Positions 11,824-21,080 of a stretch of DNA of 64,000 nucleotides are shown in pieces. The position numbers and the translations under genes are program-made. Position 1 is the stretch's first letter; the number at the start of each line of letters is the position of its first letter. Below the pieces are notes generated by a model. That model did no database searches, was not told the origin of the DNA, and was given only the letters and a program-made list of their open reading frames with translations. Source of the stretch: an uncultured Phascolarctobacterium sp. (lineage in GTDB: Bacteria; Bacillota; Negativicutes; Acidaminococcales; Acidaminococcaceae); assembly GCA_949299135.1 (NCBI GenBank), contig CASFZG010000014.1, positions 1 to 64,000 of the forward strand, in the 5' to 3' direction.

Positions 11824-11916
11824 GGGGAGCCCTCCTTCGAAAAATTATATATAGTTAATTCTATTGTTCTGTCATCGTCATTTGTATTATTTTTTATAAT
11901 CACAAATAATATTTAT

Positions 11917-13842
11917 TTACTTCATCTTCATTTCGATATATTTGCATATTAGCGAAGTCAAATCTTTTATATTTTGCTTCAAATTATCGGTTGAATTTTT
12001 ATCGTCAAGTAAATCCGATGATGAATGCGCAAGCGGATTAGCATTTCGTAATTTATGTGCTGTTTGTATAATTGATCCACTATTATCAAACCCTGAATAA
12101 AATGAAATAAAAGTGCCTTCTTTATAAAAGCCTTTATAATTTGGTTTCCTTTTTCTAGGATCATAATTATAAACAAAATCTAAATCAGCCGTAACCCTAT
12201 CAAAACAATTCTTAAAATACGCAAATGCTACCATATAATTTTTTCGCTTTATCTCACACAAATACATAAAATACAAGTAGCGTGCTTTTTCATCCATATT
12301 AATTGTATCACATAATTTATTTGTCACTTCTGATGCAAAACATTCAAGAAAGCTGCTCTTGCAATTATAAAAATAATATTTGTAAAGATCATGATGATTC
12401 TGCGAGAGTATTTTCAATAAATCTATATGCTTAAATTCTCTTTGCATCAGATATGAAATTGCAATTGTTGTATCATACGAATTCCATTTTCCTGCTTTAT
12501 TACGTTTAAATAGTTGATTAAGAAAACCTTTTATAGCCCTATCACTTTTAGTTTTCATAATCATTATGGTTAATCGCTTAGGGTCTAAACTAATAAATGA
12601 AATGCTTTGCTCAACTAATCTTACAATTTCAGTTATTACAGAATTTGTTTGCAATTCTGAATCATTTTCATAAATAAAATAATTAAAAACTTCACCAGCG
12701 GTAAACTCAATATCTTCTGCAGAAAAATGTTTATCAATTAATTGATTATATTTTTCTACGTCTATGCTATCATACAACAACTCCTCTGACAATTCTTTCA
12801 GAAAATTATATAATGATCCATTAAACATTTCTTCAATATCATGCTTTTTACCGCTAAAATACTCATCATATAAAGATTTTTTTAATTCATGATTTATCTC
12901 TTTTGTTTCTTTAAAGCAACATTTTTTAGTGTTTAGAGCCAAGCCATATTCTTTAAGAATTGAAGAATATTCATTTCTTATTTCATTATAAGCATCATGC
13001 AAAAATTCAATCGGTTTATTTGATGAAATGAGTATATACATATCATCTACATAACGGATAATCCGAAAATCCGAAAACGCTGACACATTTTTAGTAATAT
13101 AATTATAAAGCTTATTATCAATTTCATCTAAGTATACAATAGTTGCTAAAAAAGATGATGCGACACTATTTTCTATCAAAGGAAATCTACCATTTCCGCA
13201 GTATTTTAATAATTCTTTAAAAAGTTGCAATTGTATTTGTGTGAAAACTAATTTTTTTGAATTACAAACCGCATCAATTTGGACAATCAATTTATCAATA
13301 TTTATATTTGCAAAAAAATTAGTAATATCTGTTTTAATAAAATACTGATACTCATCAATACAAGAATTTAACTCTTTAAAAAAATTATCATAATCCTGTT
13401 TATACTTAGGCCGCATAAATTTGTAATTACCAGCATAATAAGCTAAAACATTATATGGTCTACTAGTTGAATATCGTTCATAAATTTCTTTACCAATAGC
13501 TTGAAGTATTAAATATAGTACAGGCGAAACAAGCGAAGATTCTCGAAAACTACCATCTGCTTTTTGTAAAAAGTTTTCAGATTGGTACATTGCTAATGGA
13601 AAGAAAATAAATGCTGCTGTACTAATATATTTTTCATAAAACTCTTTACTTCGTATAAATTCCTTATCACTATTTGTTAATTTTGAAAAAGGAAACCACT
13701 GTAAATAAGATTTTTTTGATCCTTCTTTCAATGAAAAATACATATTACAGACTGAATCCCAAGTATTATACGATATTACAAACAAAATATCACCGTTTCT
13801 TTGATACTTATTATCTATATATTTTTCGTCTTTATCTTGCAT
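11917..13842 (-). CDS. AbiA-like reverse transcriptase with C-terminal HEPN-like motif
   Basis: This 641-aa protein has a reverse-transcriptase core: FIKTDITNFF (motif A, about 168-177), GNGRFPLIENSVASS (216-230) in the place of motif B, and RYVDDMYIL (motif C, YVDD at 264-267). A long helical region follows, then a C-terminal helical domain containing R599-x6-H606 (RNANPLAH), a HEPN ribonuclease-like motif. This layout matches AbiA-type abortive-infection polymerases, which make untemplated DNA and stop phage growth. It lacks group II intron maturase and retron hallmarks. The gene is very AT-rich, unlike its neighbours, pointing to transfer. Subgroup and activity are inferred. About 200 bp upstream (13843-14040) hold no clear gene. 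Confidence 0.75.
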   Translation of the reverse strand: MQDKDEKYIDNKYQRNGDILFVISYNTWDSVCNMYFSLKEGSKKSYLQWFPFSKLTNSDKEFIRSKEFYEKYISTAAFIFFPLAMYQSENFLQKADGSFRESSLVSPVLYLILQAIGKEIYERYSTSRPYNVLAYYAGNYKFMRPKYKQDYDNFFKELNSCIDEYQYFIKTDITNFFANINIDKLIVQIDAVCNSKKLVFTQIQLQLFKELLKYCGNGRFPLIENSVASSFLATIVYLDEIDNKLYNYITKNVSAFSDFRIIRYVDDMYILISSNKPIEFLHDAYNEIRNEYSSILKEYGLALNTKKCCFKETKEINHELKKSLYDEYFSGKKHDIEEMFNGSLYNFLKELSEELLYDSIDVEKYNQLIDKHFSAEDIEFTAGEVFNYFIYENDSELQTNSVITEIVRLVEQSISFISLDPKRLTIMIMKTKSDRAIKGFLNQLFKRNKAGKWNSYDTTIAISYLMQREFKHIDLLKILSQNHHDLYKYYFYNCKSSFLECFASEVTNKLCDTINMDEKARYLYFMYLCEIKRKNYMVAFAYFKNCFDRVTADLDFVYNYDPRKRKPNYKGFYKEGTFISFYSGFDNSGSIIQTAHKLRNANPLAHSSSDLLDDKNSTDNLKQNIKDLTSLICKYIEMKMK

Positions 13843-14040
13843 TTACAATAACATCTAATCAGCATTTCATTATAGCCGACTATCAAACATTTCCTTGGCT
13901 AAAACTTTGTAATTACATAACCAATGCAAATATTGCCAGCACCGTATCTTTCAGAATGTCATCATATTTAAAATCTGTATTTAACACTCCGCTTAGTCGC
14001 AATAATCACTTGGATGAACTTCTTAATATTTATAAAATTA

Positions 14041-14193
14041 TTATAAACGACGTTTGGTTCTTTGCTCTTTGGCAATTACCGCCATTTGTTTTAACTGCTC
14101 CGGCGTAAGTTCTTGGCAATCGTCATCAAATACAATCGGGCGATTTTCCAACGCATCCAGTTTTTTTCTGCTCTTCCGTAAGCTGTTCGCCAT
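14041..14193 (-). CDS. Small acidic/basic protein of the 'DE-SPE-TPE' type, unknown function
   Basis: A 50-aa ORF (MANSLRKSRKK at the N-terminus, then PIVFDDDCQELTPEQLKQMA, ending KRRL) lies between the large restriction gene and the reverse transcriptase. The central pattern resembles very short Firmicutes proteins with a (I/V)xFDEDxPExTPE core that often occur next to toxin-like genes; I recall this pattern but cannot verify it. There is no good Shine-Dalgarno. The composition is less AT-rich than its neighbours. The next 200 bp towards the reverse transcriptase only holds short fragments. It could be an antitoxin relic. Confidence 0.4.
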   Translation of the reverse strand: MANSLRKSRKKLDALENRPIVFDDDCQELTPEQLKQMAVIAKEQRTKRRL

Positions 14194-14251
14194 TTAAATT
14201 ATGCATACTAATAACATCATATCCATGGTTTCTAAAGAATTATTTTTTATC

Positions 14252-17200
14252 TTAAAGTGAAGTCCCCATAGGTTTTATTTTATTTTCTATAAAACTACAT
14301 TCTTTTTCACTTAAATTATACTTTTTATAAAATTGTTCGTCTATTTTTTCAATAGGTTCATTCCAATCTATATCAGAATTATTTGTAAAATCTTGTATTG
14401 GCACAAATTGATAAACGTTTTGATAAACGTTTTGAGAAACTTTTAAAATTCCAACCATAAATCTAAAAAATTTAGTACTCATATATTTCTGCAAATTTTG
14501 AGCTTCTTCAACGCTATCAAATGGTCCTAACGGTATAAGTGAATCAGTACATACAGATAATGGTTTGCCTACATATGCTTTCCCCAATATAGACACAGCA
14601 CCATCATCTGTTAATATACCAGCACCGCCGTTGCCTTTTGATGTGAAGACTTTATACTTATCTATCAATTCTGTATTTTTAGTAACATTTCCTCTTTTTG
14701 TATATAGTATTTTCTCATAAGCACACCTTACACTAATAGCTCCCTCAAAATATTTTTCTGTTGTGATTTTATTTAATTCAGCAGTTTTACCAACTATGCC
14801 AAAAGCATTTCTTCCATAAGTAATTTTAGTTATTGATTCAAAAGACGAATGGTACCTTACTTTATCTAAAATGCAAATAAGTTCACTCATAGAAATTATT
14901 ATATCTAAACCATTTTCAAATAATGGTCTTGATTTTTCAATCTTTTTATCATCATAACACTCTACAAAATTTACATTTCCATTATATCCATTTTCGTATA
15001 AATAATAATTTACGCCGCCAGCAATTTCTACATTTTTGAATAACAACTTATTATCAGCATAATTAAAAATTTTAGAAAAATGGTTATTATCTTTTATAAA
15101 TTTTCGTAACTTGATAAATGACTTATCTTGCGCATCAGCAGTAAACCACCTTGAAGGTGTAATTAGCGATACATAAGACGCATCAAGTAAAGTTGTAGTT
15201 TTTATAAAATATGGAAATAATTGCTTGGATAAAGAAGCATTTTCGTTTGTACCACTTATATTTTCCTGATAAGGTGGATTACCTACAACTGCATCAAATT
15301 TCATTTTGCTTGCACCATCCTTTTTCCAATAACTAGGTTTAAGCACTTTTTCAACAAAATCATTAGGTTTATTCTCCATTTGATTTATAAGATCATCAAA
15401 ATAATGAGAATTAATTTTTACATTAAAATATCCTGCCAAAGTACGTTGCGTAATCTGTTTAGCCATTGGCGTTTTACAAATTACAAATACATTTTTTTGT
15501 ATTGTTTCATTCCAAATACTTCTTAATTTATCGATAGTTAAATCTTTTTCTGTTAAATTTTTTAGTTTAGAACGATAAATACTATATGTTACGTATAATG
15601 GATATAGTCCTGTTTTAGAATTTATCTCCAAAATTTGAGCAGAGGATTTGTTAAAAATATCTTCGGTGACTTTGCCCTTATTCACAAATCTTGGTTCATC
15701 GATTTGATATTCGTGGTTTTCGTCAAAGAAATCATAACCACCAAATATATCTGACATATGCATATTTACTACTCGCCAAGGAGTTAAAACTGTTTCTTTA
15801 TCCGGATTTTTGAAATTAGAAAATAAAGATGATATCTTTTCTACCCTTTCTGTAGGTTCTAATGTATCTGCTTCTTTTGCAATATTCCTAATTCTGCGTC
15901 CTGCAGCAATAAATATATCTTCATCATAGTATTTTTTAAAATCTTTAAAAATCTCTTTAGTTACACCAGTTGGCATAAATTCATTCCAAGATGAATCATC
16001 TACTTTTTCTATAAAGCGATCTATAGTTATTTCTTCATCATATGGAATATCTGCCCCATAGATCAGCAATGGCATACGTATTGAAATACCACGCAAAATA
16101 GAAATAGCATCATTTCTTACTTTTCTCTTTTCTTTTAACTCCTTTAATCTTGCAATTTCATCAGCTGTAAGCTCTTTTTTAGGTTTCTTTTTTAATCTTT
16201 CCTGTTCCTCATATTCTTCATTCGTAAGTCCTTGATTATTTACTGTAATATCATTCTGTTTAGCAGCAGCTTTAGATGTTCCTATAATTCCTTTTAAATT
16301 ATTGAATTTCTTTATATCTAATTCATTTAATTTAAGTAATTCATCATTGTATAAATTAGTGTCATCAAAACCATTACGCACAACTTTATCAGCATAAGCT
16401 TTTTTCAATTGTTGTAATAATCCATCAACATTATACTCTTTCATTTGTGAGCCAACAATCGAAATTACAGGGCAATAATTCAAAAATTTACCAAGTATTT
16501 TTTTATCATTATCTTTAGTTTTACCCGCTTTTGCAGATACAGAAACAGCTTCTGCTACCATTTTTAATGTACGGTCAGGCGCAAAATCAAAAACGTAAGC
16601 CGTATCTTTAATCATACCGTTTTTATTACATGGGGATTGAACACGAAAAATTGTTTGCAGATAATTGGCCGCAGACGTCGAATATGAACCAGCCAACATA
16701 AGAACAGCAGTCCATTCCTTTATTGTTACACCTGTTGTTAATTTACCACAAGATAATGTAATTGTATACGTATCAAGTTTTTCTGCTTCACTAATAGCAG
16801 TTTTAACACTGTTCAAAGCATTTGCTGCTTCTTCATCATTATTTCCGGCAACATTAATTATATTAAATTGCCCACTACCAAAAACCGGATGTTTGCTCAT
16901 TAATTTTTTTAATGCTTTTGCTTCTTTAACGCCAGGTACCATCCAAAGGGAATGTTTAAATAAATTTCTATATTCTTCTTTTGAATAAGGATAAACACTA
17001 TTTGCATTTTCTTTAGTCATAAGATTGAGAAAAGACAAAATATCTTTTTCATGAACAAAATCTCCGACTTCAGCATTTTCAGGCATGTTTGCATAATCAA
17101 GCTTAAAATCACCTGTCCATGTTCTAAAAAATTCATGAAAATTAAAAGCTTTATCTTCGTAAGTAATATAATTGCTGTTATGCAATAAATCACCAAGATC

Positions 17201-18319
17201 ATATGTATAAATTTGCAACTCAGGAAGCTCATCATATGGATTAGAGTCGCCAAAATGTAGCTTATTCCATTCAGATTTACATTCTTGCTCCATTATATAA
17301 TCCCATGTATAAATAGCTTCATTATCGTATTCATTTATAATATTAAACGGTGTACCTGACAAAGCAAGTAATTTTGTCTTTTTTAGTTCTTCTTTTACAA
17401 CCGCTTTTATTGTTTCATCACCTAACGCTGTTTTTGTTCCTTCATGTGCTTCATCTATAATCACGCAATCCCATACAGTTGTAAATATATCATCGTTCTT
17501 TCCATATTTCCCGCCAACTTTTTCAGAACCACGTAAATCCTGAATGGAAGCAAAATACACAAAATTTTTATCAGTTTTATTTAAATTATCAACTGTTTCG
17601 CCATTTGTTTTAGAAGCATATACATATTTTGTTCCATAAAATATTTTATTAAAATCGTCATACCAACCATCATTCACAACTGGTCTATGTGTTAATATAA
17701 TAGTTTTCTTAAATTTGCAACGTTTTACAACCTCTAAAGTGCTTAAAGTTTTACCAAAACGCATTTTAGCATTCCAAAGCATTCTATCATTCTTTTTAAA
17801 CTGCTTTATCGTTAATTCAATAGCATCTTTCTGTTCTGGTCTAAAAACAATAGGTATCTGTTCACATTTTTGAGTATTACTAAGATTGGAATAATTTTTC
17901 TTTACAGCATTTATTGCTTCGATAACGGTATATTTATCGACTTTATACCATTCACGTCCTGTGCTATCACCAATTTTTACTTTTTTTATTCTGGAATTAT
18001 CCAATACACGATGTACATCATAATCTCTAAAAGCCTTTAATTTAATTACATTATTTTCATGTAATTCTTTTACTGCAAGTTCTGTATACAATAAATTTAC
18101 TGTTATACCAGCCGTATTAGTATAACTTTTTATTCTTTTTAACGCCGCTTGATTTAACTCGCGGCAATTAGGCGTAAGCTTATCAACAGAAGAAGTTGTA
18201 TGTAATGTCGCATCTCCAACTTTAATTAAGCCTCTATGTTCGTTATCATCAATAGCTAAAGCATAAATAACTTTATAATTAAATGTATTTTTGAAATTCA
18301 TTTTTTCTTCTGTTTTCAT
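14252..18319 (-). CDS. Single-chain restriction-modification protein: helicase plus N6-adenine methyltransferase
   Basis: This 1355-aa protein contains, in order: an N-terminal stretch resembling GIY-YIG/T5orf172 nucleases (VIYALA at 17, GLIKVGDAT at 30-38); an SF2 helicase with Walker A RFGKT (187-191), DEAH (289-292), SGTPF (321-325) and a C-terminal lobe with QTIFRVQSP near 555; a charged coiled region (~690-740); a methyltransferase with ILEINSKTGLYPLY at 896 in the motif I position and NPPY at 1014-1017 (motif IV, N6-adenine); and a C-terminal region likely to recognise DNA. Architecture resembles type ISP/IIG enzymes. Its start overlaps the stop of the 315-aa partner by 4 nt. It is strongly AT-rich. 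The nuclease assignment is the weakest part. Confidence 0.8.
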   Translation of the reverse strand: MKTEEKMNFKNTFNYKVIYALAIDDNEHRGLIKVGDATLHTTSSVDKLTPNCRELNQAALKRIKSYTNTAGITVNLLYTELAVKELHENNVIKLKAFRDYDVHRVLDNSRIKKVKIGDSTGREWYKVDKYTVIEAINAVKKNYSNLSNTQKCEQIPIVFRPEQKDAIELTIKQFKKNDRMLWNAKMRFGKTLSTLEVVKRCKFKKTIILTHRPVVNDGWYDDFNKIFYGTKYVYASKTNGETVDNLNKTDKNFVYFASIQDLRGSEKVGGKYGKNDDIFTTVWDCVIIDEAHEGTKTALGDETIKAVVKEELKKTKLLALSGTPFNIINEYDNEAIYTWDYIMEQECKSEWNKLHFGDSNPYDELPELQIYTYDLGDLLHNSNYITYEDKAFNFHEFFRTWTGDFKLDYANMPENAEVGDFVHEKDILSFLNLMTKENANSVYPYSKEEYRNLFKHSLWMVPGVKEAKALKKLMSKHPVFGSGQFNIINVAGNNDEEAANALNSVKTAISEAEKLDTYTITLSCGKLTTGVTIKEWTAVLMLAGSYSTSAANYLQTIFRVQSPCNKNGMIKDTAYVFDFAPDRTLKMVAEAVSVSAKAGKTKDNDKKILGKFLNYCPVISIVGSQMKEYNVDGLLQQLKKAYADKVVRNGFDDTNLYNDELLKLNELDIKKFNNLKGIIGTSKAAAKQNDITVNNQGLTNEEYEEQERLKKKPKKELTADEIARLKELKEKRKVRNDAISILRGISIRMPLLIYGADIPYDEEITIDRFIEKVDDSSWNEFMPTGVTKEIFKDFKKYYDEDIFIAAGRRIRNIAKEADTLEPTERVEKISSLFSNFKNPDKETVLTPWRVVNMHMSDIFGGYDFFDENHEYQIDEPRFVNKGKVTEDIFNKSSAQILEINSKTGLYPLYVTYSIYRSKLKNLTEKDLTIDKLRSIWNETIQKNVFVICKTPMAKQITQRTLAGYFNVKINSHYFDDLINQMENKPNDFVEKVLKPSYWKKDGASKMKFDAVVGNPPYQENISGTNENASLSKQLFPYFIKTTTLLDASYVSLITPSRWFTADAQDKSFIKLRKFIKDNNHFSKIFNYADNKLLFKNVEIAGGVNYYLYENGYNGNVNFVECYDDKKIEKSRPLFENGLDIIISMSELICILDKVRYHSSFESITKITYGRNAFGIVGKTAELNKITTEKYFEGAISVRCAYEKILYTKRGNVTKNTELIDKYKVFTSKGNGGAGILTDDGAVSILGKAYVGKPLSVCTDSLIPLGPFDSVEEAQNLQKYMSTKFFRFMVGILKVSQNVYQNVYQFVPIQDFTNNSDIDWNEPIEKIDEQFYKKYNLSEKECSFIENKIKPMGTSL

Positions 18320-19257
18320 AAATTTAATTCTCCATTCAGCAAACTTTTAAATTCTAAACTGCGTTTAGAACGCCAATCATATATTTTGCATGGTACAGGT
18401 TCTTTATTACTTGTTACTTTTTCTTCAATAAAGTCAAAAATAGTCATTTGTTTATTTTGACTTGGACGTTCACTATAAGGCACGCTCATTGTAATTGCAT
18501 CCATTTGCCAAATATTCCATGAAATAATTTTTGCTATAATCATTAATTGCCTTTCATTAGGTTCATGCCCAAATTTATAATTCATATTTTCAATAAAAGT
18601 ATACAACAAATTTTCTCGTGCAATCAACAAACTGTCACCTTGATATTCGTAACCATAAATACTTTCATATGCTCTTTTGGTCCAAAAAAACCAATCGTTT
18701 TCAGAAACTGTATTTTCGTTTATTACTCGCAGTTTTCTATCTAATAATCCTATTCGTTCTTCAATTGGAATTGCTTTACCAGTAACTGTATCATATCTAC
18801 TAACAAGATACGGAGCTTCACCACAGCTAATTTCTATCCTTTTGGAATCTACATATTTTCTCCATGTTTTATTTTCTGAAAAACAAATAACTTTTTTATT
18901 AGTTATCCATGAATTATTTTTTGACTGATTAAATACATTTTTTCTGCCAAACCAAGCTTCATCAATTAAATTATTTTGTTCATTACATATCCACGAAGGA
19001 GTAAATACTTCACCCTTATCTTTAGTTCTTTTAAGCTGCTCTTTTATATCTTTTGCAATTCTTGGTACAGCTAAATTTTCATTTTCACGCATTATCAAAT
19101 CTTTTTTTATAGGTTCTTGTGGATAATATCCCGGTCCATAACTTATATAATGTTCTGTTGCCCAACAAATATTTTTTCTTGTCGCTCTGTCAAACAATAA
19201 CACATTAAAAAGCTTTTCTGATATATCTATATTACCATGCTTTATGATTCTAATCAT
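18316..19257 (-). CDS. Restriction-modification partner protein (methylase-like, 'subunit M' type)
   Basis: This ~313-aa protein shows KDKGEVFTPSWICNEQNNLID (about 100-120), the G-x-V-F-T-P segment that precedes the SAM-binding motif in N6-adenine methylases, and EISCGEAPYLVSRYD, another segment common in Eco57I-like enzymes. The core D-P-x-x-G-x-G and NPPY motifs are missing, so it cannot methylate alone. It overlaps the large helicase-methylase gene by 4 nt and is probably its obligatory partner, perhaps for specificity or SAM binding. ATG 19257 is preferred because GGAG lies nine bases upstream; ATG 19263 is too close to it. Confidence 0.65.
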   Translation of the reverse strand: MIRIIKHGNIDISEKLFNVLLFDRATRKNICWATEHYISYGPGYYPQEPIKKDLIMRENENLAVPRIAKDIKEQLKRTKDKGEVFTPSWICNEQNNLIDEAWFGRKNVFNQSKNNSWITNKKVICFSENKTWRKYVDSKRIEISCGEAPYLVSRYDTVTGKAIPIEERIGLLDRKLRVINENTVSENDWFFWTKRAYESIYGYEYQGDSLLIARENLLYTFIENMNYKFGHEPNERQLMIIAKIISWNIWQMDAITMSVPYSERPSQNKQMTIFDFIEEKVTSNKEPVPCKIYDWRSKRSLEFKSLLNGELNL

Positions 19258-19365
19258 GATCATGTACTCCTATTTTTAGCAAAGATTTATATTTCACACT
19301 TTACTTTAAACTAAATATAATGTATATGCTAAAAGAAACAATTTCATTATTTTAATCAAAAACAG

Positions 19366-20975
19366 CTACTTCCTTTTAAATATCACATCCTCTAGTTCTC
19401 GATAAACTTTCATACTGTTATTAATACATCCAGCTAAATTTCTTTTAAATTTTTCTGGATTAATACTTATAGTTAATCCACAACAAGATTTAATAGCCCC
19501 TGTTTTATCTTTTAAATTTTCATTATCAATGTCCTGCACTATCTCATCGTATTTTTCTTCATTAAATACTAATTCATTTTTTTGGCAATACTCTCTTAAA
19601 ACTTCCTTATCATATAAATAATTTTCTAATTCAAATCTTTTTAATATTCTATAATTTTCATCTTGATTGTTTAAATATTGTATTCGTGTTTGTTCATTTG
19701 TTAGATTTCCTGATGCTATATCTCTATCTTTTAAAACTAATATTTTTAAATCAGTAAATATTTTGGAAAAAATAGCAATGGCGATATTACTACGTTGGTC
19801 AAGTTCTGTATTTCCTCCACTTGATACAAACATAACCTCAGGATAATATTTTGCAAATATAGTATTATAAACATCTGCATCCAATCCTTGCTCTCTACCA
19901 TCTGGTGTTGGTTCCGCTCTACCTTCACAGTAAATTATAACTTTTGGACAAATTAAGTTTGCTAAATCATCCAAAGCCGTAGAAAAAAGTTTTTGCCATT
20001 CCAAACGACTTAATTGAACTGGTTTCAAAATATATTTTTCAGAAGCCCATTTATTATCGTTTTTAAATTCAATTATTTGTGATTCATTTTTTAATTCCTG
20101 CTGTATTGCCCGTAAAAACCCAATACTATGTGTAGCTATCCATATCTGACAATTATCTGGCACCATTTTGTTAATTTCAAGTAATAGCTTTCTCTGAATA
20201 GCAGTATTTAAATGTAATTCTGGTTCATCTATAATATAAATAGAATCAATATATTTATCTTTTCTCAAATATAAATCAAGTAAGATATCAATTACTTCCT
20301 TTTCTCCTGCCGATAAAACATTATAATCAAAAACTATATCAGAATCACTTTTTTTAAATACAATGTTCCCTTATTTTGATCTATATTTCCTATGCTTACA
20401 ATTTCTAAATCCAAACAGCTGCTTAAAGCATTATTTAATTCACCAATAATATATTTTCTTGCTTCGCTTGGTTTTACATCATTTTCTTCTAAATATTTAT
20501 TATATTTTGCCAATAACCTTCTATAATCCTGTTCAATTCGTTGATCAATGTCAGAAGCCGAAGAAGCTCCATAATCGTTATTAATAATATCTTCCATAGA
20601 AATTATTTGATTAACTTTTAAATTACTATTGTATCTAAAAGAGCTTCTAAAACTAAAAATACTATTTTCTAATCCATTTTTTCTTTTTTCCTCAAAAACA
20701 TCGCTAAATAGTCCACTATCAAATTCTATACTTACATTTTCATAATTGTAATTGGGACTTTGTCTAAGCGAATGATACCGATAATCTCTATAAATATTAT
20801 TTTCTCCTATTCTTCCGTATGCTTTAGCAAAAAACAACATAGCATCAAAGACACTGCTTTTCCCACAACCATTTGGTCCTACTAATGCAATTATCTTTTT
20901 AGGATTATCTCCAAAATCTATTGTTAAATCATAAAATCTCTTATATTCTTTCATGTGAATTTTTTTAATTTTCAT
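19366..20975 (-). pseudogene. AAA ATPase/TOPRIM-like (OLD-family-like) protein split by a -1 frameshift
   Basis: The upstream frame (20334-20975, 213 aa) holds the SMC-like start MKIKKIHMKEYKRFYDL and Walker A LVGPNGCGKSS. It ends at TAG 20334-20336. A -1 shift at a run of seven A (20349-20355) continues into YNVLSAGEKEVIDILL (ABC-type signature), Walker B YIIDEPELHL, ATHS (H-loop) and a C-terminal TOPRIM-like region (VIIYCEGRAE, SSGGNTELDQ, LKDRD). Restored length is about 536 aa, as expected for an OLD-like nuclease/ATPase. The site reads T-TTA-AAA-AAA-G, a classical slippery heptamer, so programmed frameshifting or polymerase slippage is possible. A mutation or sequencing error is the alternative. 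Confidence 0.7.
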
Positions 20976-21010
20976 TATTATTCTACCCCATATCATTGAA
21001 TATATATTTT

Positions 21011-21050
21011 AAATATGGCAGGCAATCTTTAAAAGACAGCCTGCCATATA
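21011..21050 (-). terminator. Terminator-like hairpin downstream of guaA
   Basis: TATGGCAGGC (21014-21023) pairs with GCCTGCCATA (21039-21048). On the minus strand an AT-rich tract TTTAAAATAT follows. It lies between guaA and the defence island. Confidence 0.6.
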
Positions 21051-21080
21051 ACTTTAACTATATAATTTTATTATATCACA

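Follow-up and report, generated by a model that had tools for sequence, protein, structure and literature searches.

Within a 64,000-nucleotide stretch of contig CASFZG010000014.1 from an uncultured Phascolarctobacterium sp. (hereafter the window, at its full length), an open reading frame (ORF) on the minus strand at 11917..13842 raises the question of what kind of reverse transcriptase (RT) it encodes. An earlier reading of the DNA letters (the original prediction) had proposed a very divergent AbiA-like RT, perhaps of a new subgroup, with a HEPN ribonuclease-like motif near its end and a neighboring stretch that could carry an RNA. The ORF was found to be intact and open for 641 aa (the numbering used for the window protein below, unless stated otherwise), and it contains both predicted RT motifs, TDITNFF at residues 171-177 and YVDD at residues 264-267.

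Assignment to the AbiA family

The encoded protein matches the NCBIfam AbiA model TIGR04499 with 736.4 bits (curated cut-off, 250), the match extending over residues 21-632 and the complete model (positions 1-615 of 615). The PADLOC AbiA model gave 785 bits, compared with ~51 bits for the top non-AbiA RT model. RVT_1 (PF00078) was matched by residues 152-314 (41.4 bits, cut-off 29.6) and the Pfam family HEPN_AbiA_CTD (PF18732) by residues 509-638 (184-189 bits, cut-off 27; 1.4e-54). Comparison with a known AbiA, which had been called for, was provided by the solved Lactococcus lactis enzyme (8oz7), which matches the window protein over its whole length (3e-73). Membership in AbiA (TIGR04499) is marked by a whole-length score above the cut-off, an RT-like domain with an intact YxDD and an AbiA-type HEPN domain at the C-terminus, all of which were found here. 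An AlphaFold2 model built from a two-row alignment had a mean pLDDT of 38 and was left out of fold searches; being too poor for that use, it leaves the fold of the protein to be judged by sequence homology.

By these matches the gene is a full-length, ordinary AbiA, a member of an already described family of anti-phage enzymes and not a new subgroup. The predicted AbiA-like RT with a C-terminal HEPN domain is thus borne out by TIGR04499, PF18732, the PADLOC AbiA model and 8oz7, while the claim of strong divergence is not supported: the score is almost threefold the cut-off curated for AbiA, and relatives within the family are 51-66% identical. On the minus strand of the window, the RT-like domain (fingers and palm) was placed at 12970..13785, with an approximate inner limit, from PF00078, the motifs and the alignment with L. 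lactis AbiA. The HEPN_AbiA_CTD domain was placed at 11929..12318 from PF18732, and it is the dimerization domain in L. lactis AbiA (PMC11077055).

The true start of the gene is probably the TTG at 13785 and not the ATG at 13842, which would shorten the product from 641 to 622 aa and place abiA at 11917..13785 on the minus strand. This start is favored because complete relatives begin with MF[G/D]I[S/T]Y at the equivalent of window residue 20, where the window has a TTG codon followed by the same sequence, and because position 1 of the TIGR04499 model aligns to residue 21. Clear Shine-Dalgarno sequences were identified ahead of the start in two relatives (L002 and L023).

Conserved residues and the role of the HEPN domain

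L. lactis AbiA dimerizes via its HEPN domain and makes DNA without a template (PMC11077055). It primes on Tyr298 or Tyr303, of which only Tyr298 is conserved, and the substitutions D240N and Y298F/Y303F abolish defence (PMC11077055). On alignment, residues D240, Y298, Y27, Y130, Y134, Y363, R581 and H588 of this enzyme were found to be identical in the window protein, which keeps both YVDD aspartates and the four DNA-contact tyrosines; YVDD is also conserved in relatives. The equivalent of Tyr298, in the linker between the RT-like and helical domains, is Tyr325 (Tyr306 counted from the TTG; codon at 12868..12870, minus strand), and this position is a tyrosine in 6/6 sequences covering it. The second primer, Tyr303, is a serine in the window protein, in agreement with the published remark that only Tyr298 is conserved (PMC11077055). 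The two enzymes are also of near-equal length and share the order of RT-like, helical and HEPN domains. What the sequence establishes here is that the protein belongs to the family, has its domain order and keeps the residues that were tested in Lactococcus AbiA.

As those tested residues are kept, the same mechanism is inferred for the window protein, which is almost certainly a stand-alone anti-phage polymerase of the Abi/UG group of RTs, working by homology as Lactococcus AbiA does. Following the published Lactococcus work for polymerization, protein priming, dimerization and defence, the window AbiA would dimerize through its HEPN domain and attach the first nucleotide to its own Tyr325. 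Untemplated extension would then yield a single DNA strand covalently bound to the protein, and this DNA synthesis would be required to block certain phages. In such a mechanism the most likely role of the HEPN domain is a structural one or the binding of nucleic acid. Details may differ, since identity to the one bench-tested AbiA is only 30%; a further point of difference is the serine in place of its Tyr303. AbiK and Abi-P2 are likewise Abi polymerases with RT-like and helical domains, described as untemplated and protein-primed (PMC9508834; PMC11077055), but they have no HEPN domain and assemble as trimers or hexamers instead of dimers (PMC11077055).

The predicted HEPN ribonuclease-like motif, RNANPLAH (R599 and H606, within residues 599-606; 12025..12048, minus strand), is the sole R-x6-H of the 641-aa protein and corresponds to R581 and H588 of L. 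lactis AbiA, where it reads RNSNPVSH. The motif alone is weak evidence, since composition-preserving shuffles yield an R-x6-H by chance, anywhere in 26% of sequences and within the last 50 residues in 2%. The HEPN assignment is real because of the profile match to HEPN_AbiA_CTD, inside which RNANPLAH lies in agreement with the R-x4-6-H pattern of HEPN ribonucleases. Seven AbiA family sequences, two of them partial, were gathered for alignment, and the R and H were found to be identical in all seven. When 19-residue stretches of the window and Lactococcus proteins were compared, those around R-x6-H had 12/19 identical residues, joint best in the protein, against 11/19 at best for the YVDD stretch and for one stretch of the helical domain; the lead over the YVDD stretch is a small margin drawn from few sequences.

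The ribonuclease-like label fits the motif and its place within HEPN_AbiA_CTD, but R581A, H588A and double mutants of L. lactis AbiA kept defence against the phages used in the published study, which detected no RNase activity (PMC11077055). The high conservation of the motif sits oddly with this reported dispensability, which is a mild puzzle; a structural role, or a nuclease with a trigger as yet untried, could each explain it. An active nuclease or nucleotide-handling site switched on only by a further trigger would account for conservation despite the defect-free Lactococcus mutants, and is considered unlikely. It has also been put forward that AbiA acts in two ways (PMC3710099), with a polymerase that senses or handicaps the phage and a HEPN domain that turns into an RNase once the cell is infected, killing or stalling it. 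The invariant R and H and the joint best conserved stretch around them are consistent with this proposal, which is nevertheless unlikely in view of the L. lactis mutants and the absence of RNase activity, tests carried out on enzyme without phage triggering and, for phage resistance, in E. coli as a surrogate host (PMC11077055).

The region upstream of abiA

The original prediction described a gene-poor stretch of 200 bp next to the gene. This gap is in fact larger: 409 bp (13843-14251) separate the ATG from the upstream gene, and 466 bp do so if the TTG is the start. With no intact recognized gene in it, this stretch might be thought to hold the non-coding RNA of an RNA-templated defence RT of the DRT2, DRT3a, DRT9 or DRT10 type, a reading that is very improbable on the evidence from both the DNA and the protein. 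An Rfam search of the gap gave no match at the gathering score, and those that scored lower were insignificant. The fold of the gap was no better than that of shuffled sequences (z-score +0.37), and comparison of the upstream and downstream DNA with that of AbiA relatives revealed no meaningful conservation. In three relatives (L022, L024 and L025) the gap upstream of AbiA is 60-110 bp, and in the window part of the gap is taken up by what is left of a small protein gene. The protein itself matches AbiA models and not RNA-templated RTs. An RNA gene in the gap was rejected as the Rfam search, the folding against shuffles and the comparison with relatives were all negative; the conserved structured RNA beside the RT that distinguishes ncRNA-templated DRT systems is absent from these results.

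The small gene remnant lies at 14044-14205 of the window (NGEQLTEEQKK / LDALENRPIVFDDDCQELTPEQLKQMAVIAKEQRTKRRL) and is broken at an A7 run. Neither a Pfam family nor a second copy in the genome was found for it; the sequence is reminiscent of small antitoxins.

Least probable of all is that an RT from a group II intron or a retron has been mistaken for one of the Abi kind, the placement named beforehand as contrary to an AbiA assignment: a group II intron RT model matches weakly (37.6 bits), as expected for any RT, and the reading is refuted by profile scores of 736-785 bits for AbiA models against ~38-51 for other kinds of RT, together with the C-terminal HEPN_AbiA_CTD.

Genomic context and distribution of AbiA

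The abiA gene is located in an A+T-rich defence island of ~9 kb (11883..21080) with a G+C content of 28%, delimited by its composition and flanked by ybjQ and the 3' end of guaA. The G+C content of abiA is 27%, while that of the sequence flanking the island is near 50-55%. Upstream of abiA, also on the minus strand, is a gene for a fused helicase and Eco57I-type DNA methylase of 1355 aa (14252..18319; PF04851 ResIII and PF07669 Eco57I; PADLOC type IIG, 168 bits), which overlaps by 4 bp with that of a type II DNA methyltransferase of 315 aa (18316..19263, minus strand; PADLOC MTase_II, 354 bits). A further minus-strand gene at 19366..20996 is AAA-plus-TOPRIM-like and resembles PARIS AriAB / OLD. 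It occupies two frames, split at an A7 run near 20355, the split being a true frameshift, a slippage site or an assembly error.

The AbiA reading is supported by this setting, a defence island with restriction-modification genes nearby, as is seen in L022, L024 and L025: LlaJI lies beside Lactococcus AbiA (L022) and a type I specificity subunit is found in L024 and L025. The occurrence of the AbiA C-terminal domain in operons with restriction-modification systems is on record (PMC3710099). Both the Lactococcus gene and that of the window adjoin such genes; the former is on a plasmid, whereas the latter is chromosomal, between guaA and ybjQ.

The guaA and ybjQ flanks were found to be conserved in four congeners (L044, L045, L046 and L047), in which they enclose other restriction/defence genes. 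The gene sets of the interval differ between congeners, except for a core common to L045 and L046; a partial second guaA end is present in L044, and a tyrosine integrase adjoins guaA in L045. The interval is a variable defence-gene hotspot. Just beyond ybjQ in L047 (10513-11511), an unrelated second RT of retron-like size was observed (333 aa; RVT_1, 102 bits).

The nearest relative found, from a Clostridia metagenome genome (L002; JAFUOR010000150.1), is 66% identical to the window AbiA over its whole length. Its neighbors differ from those of the window: downstream lie a DUF5677 protein and a different protein of methylase type; the gene for the former (L002 2450-3265) begins ~30 bp downstream of AbiA on the same strand. 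Two relatives from the same bacterial class as the window (L023 and L024) have 51-54% identity to it, and Lactococcus AbiA, at 30%, belongs to the same family. AbiA is sparse in the phylum and class sampled, with HEPN_AbiA_CTD matches above the cut-off in 2/398 genomes across the phylum and 4/380 in the class, the window genome being counted in each. Three copies are broken: one has its parts separated by transposase-looking ORFs (L026, 7297-12917), one is frame-broken (L025, 6833-8701) and the third is a fragment with stops (G567; L027). A search of plasmids identified one full-length AbiA, in Lactococcus, and no relatives were found in the phage and viral collections searched, nor further members in two other bacterial classes.

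The window adds one intact chromosomal AbiA, 30% identical to the sole AbiA found with a tested mechanism. It offers a useful natural experiment on the importance of individual residues, in particular the conserved HEPN pair reported to be dispensable, and the guaA-ybjQ defence hotspot is worth mining in the genus.
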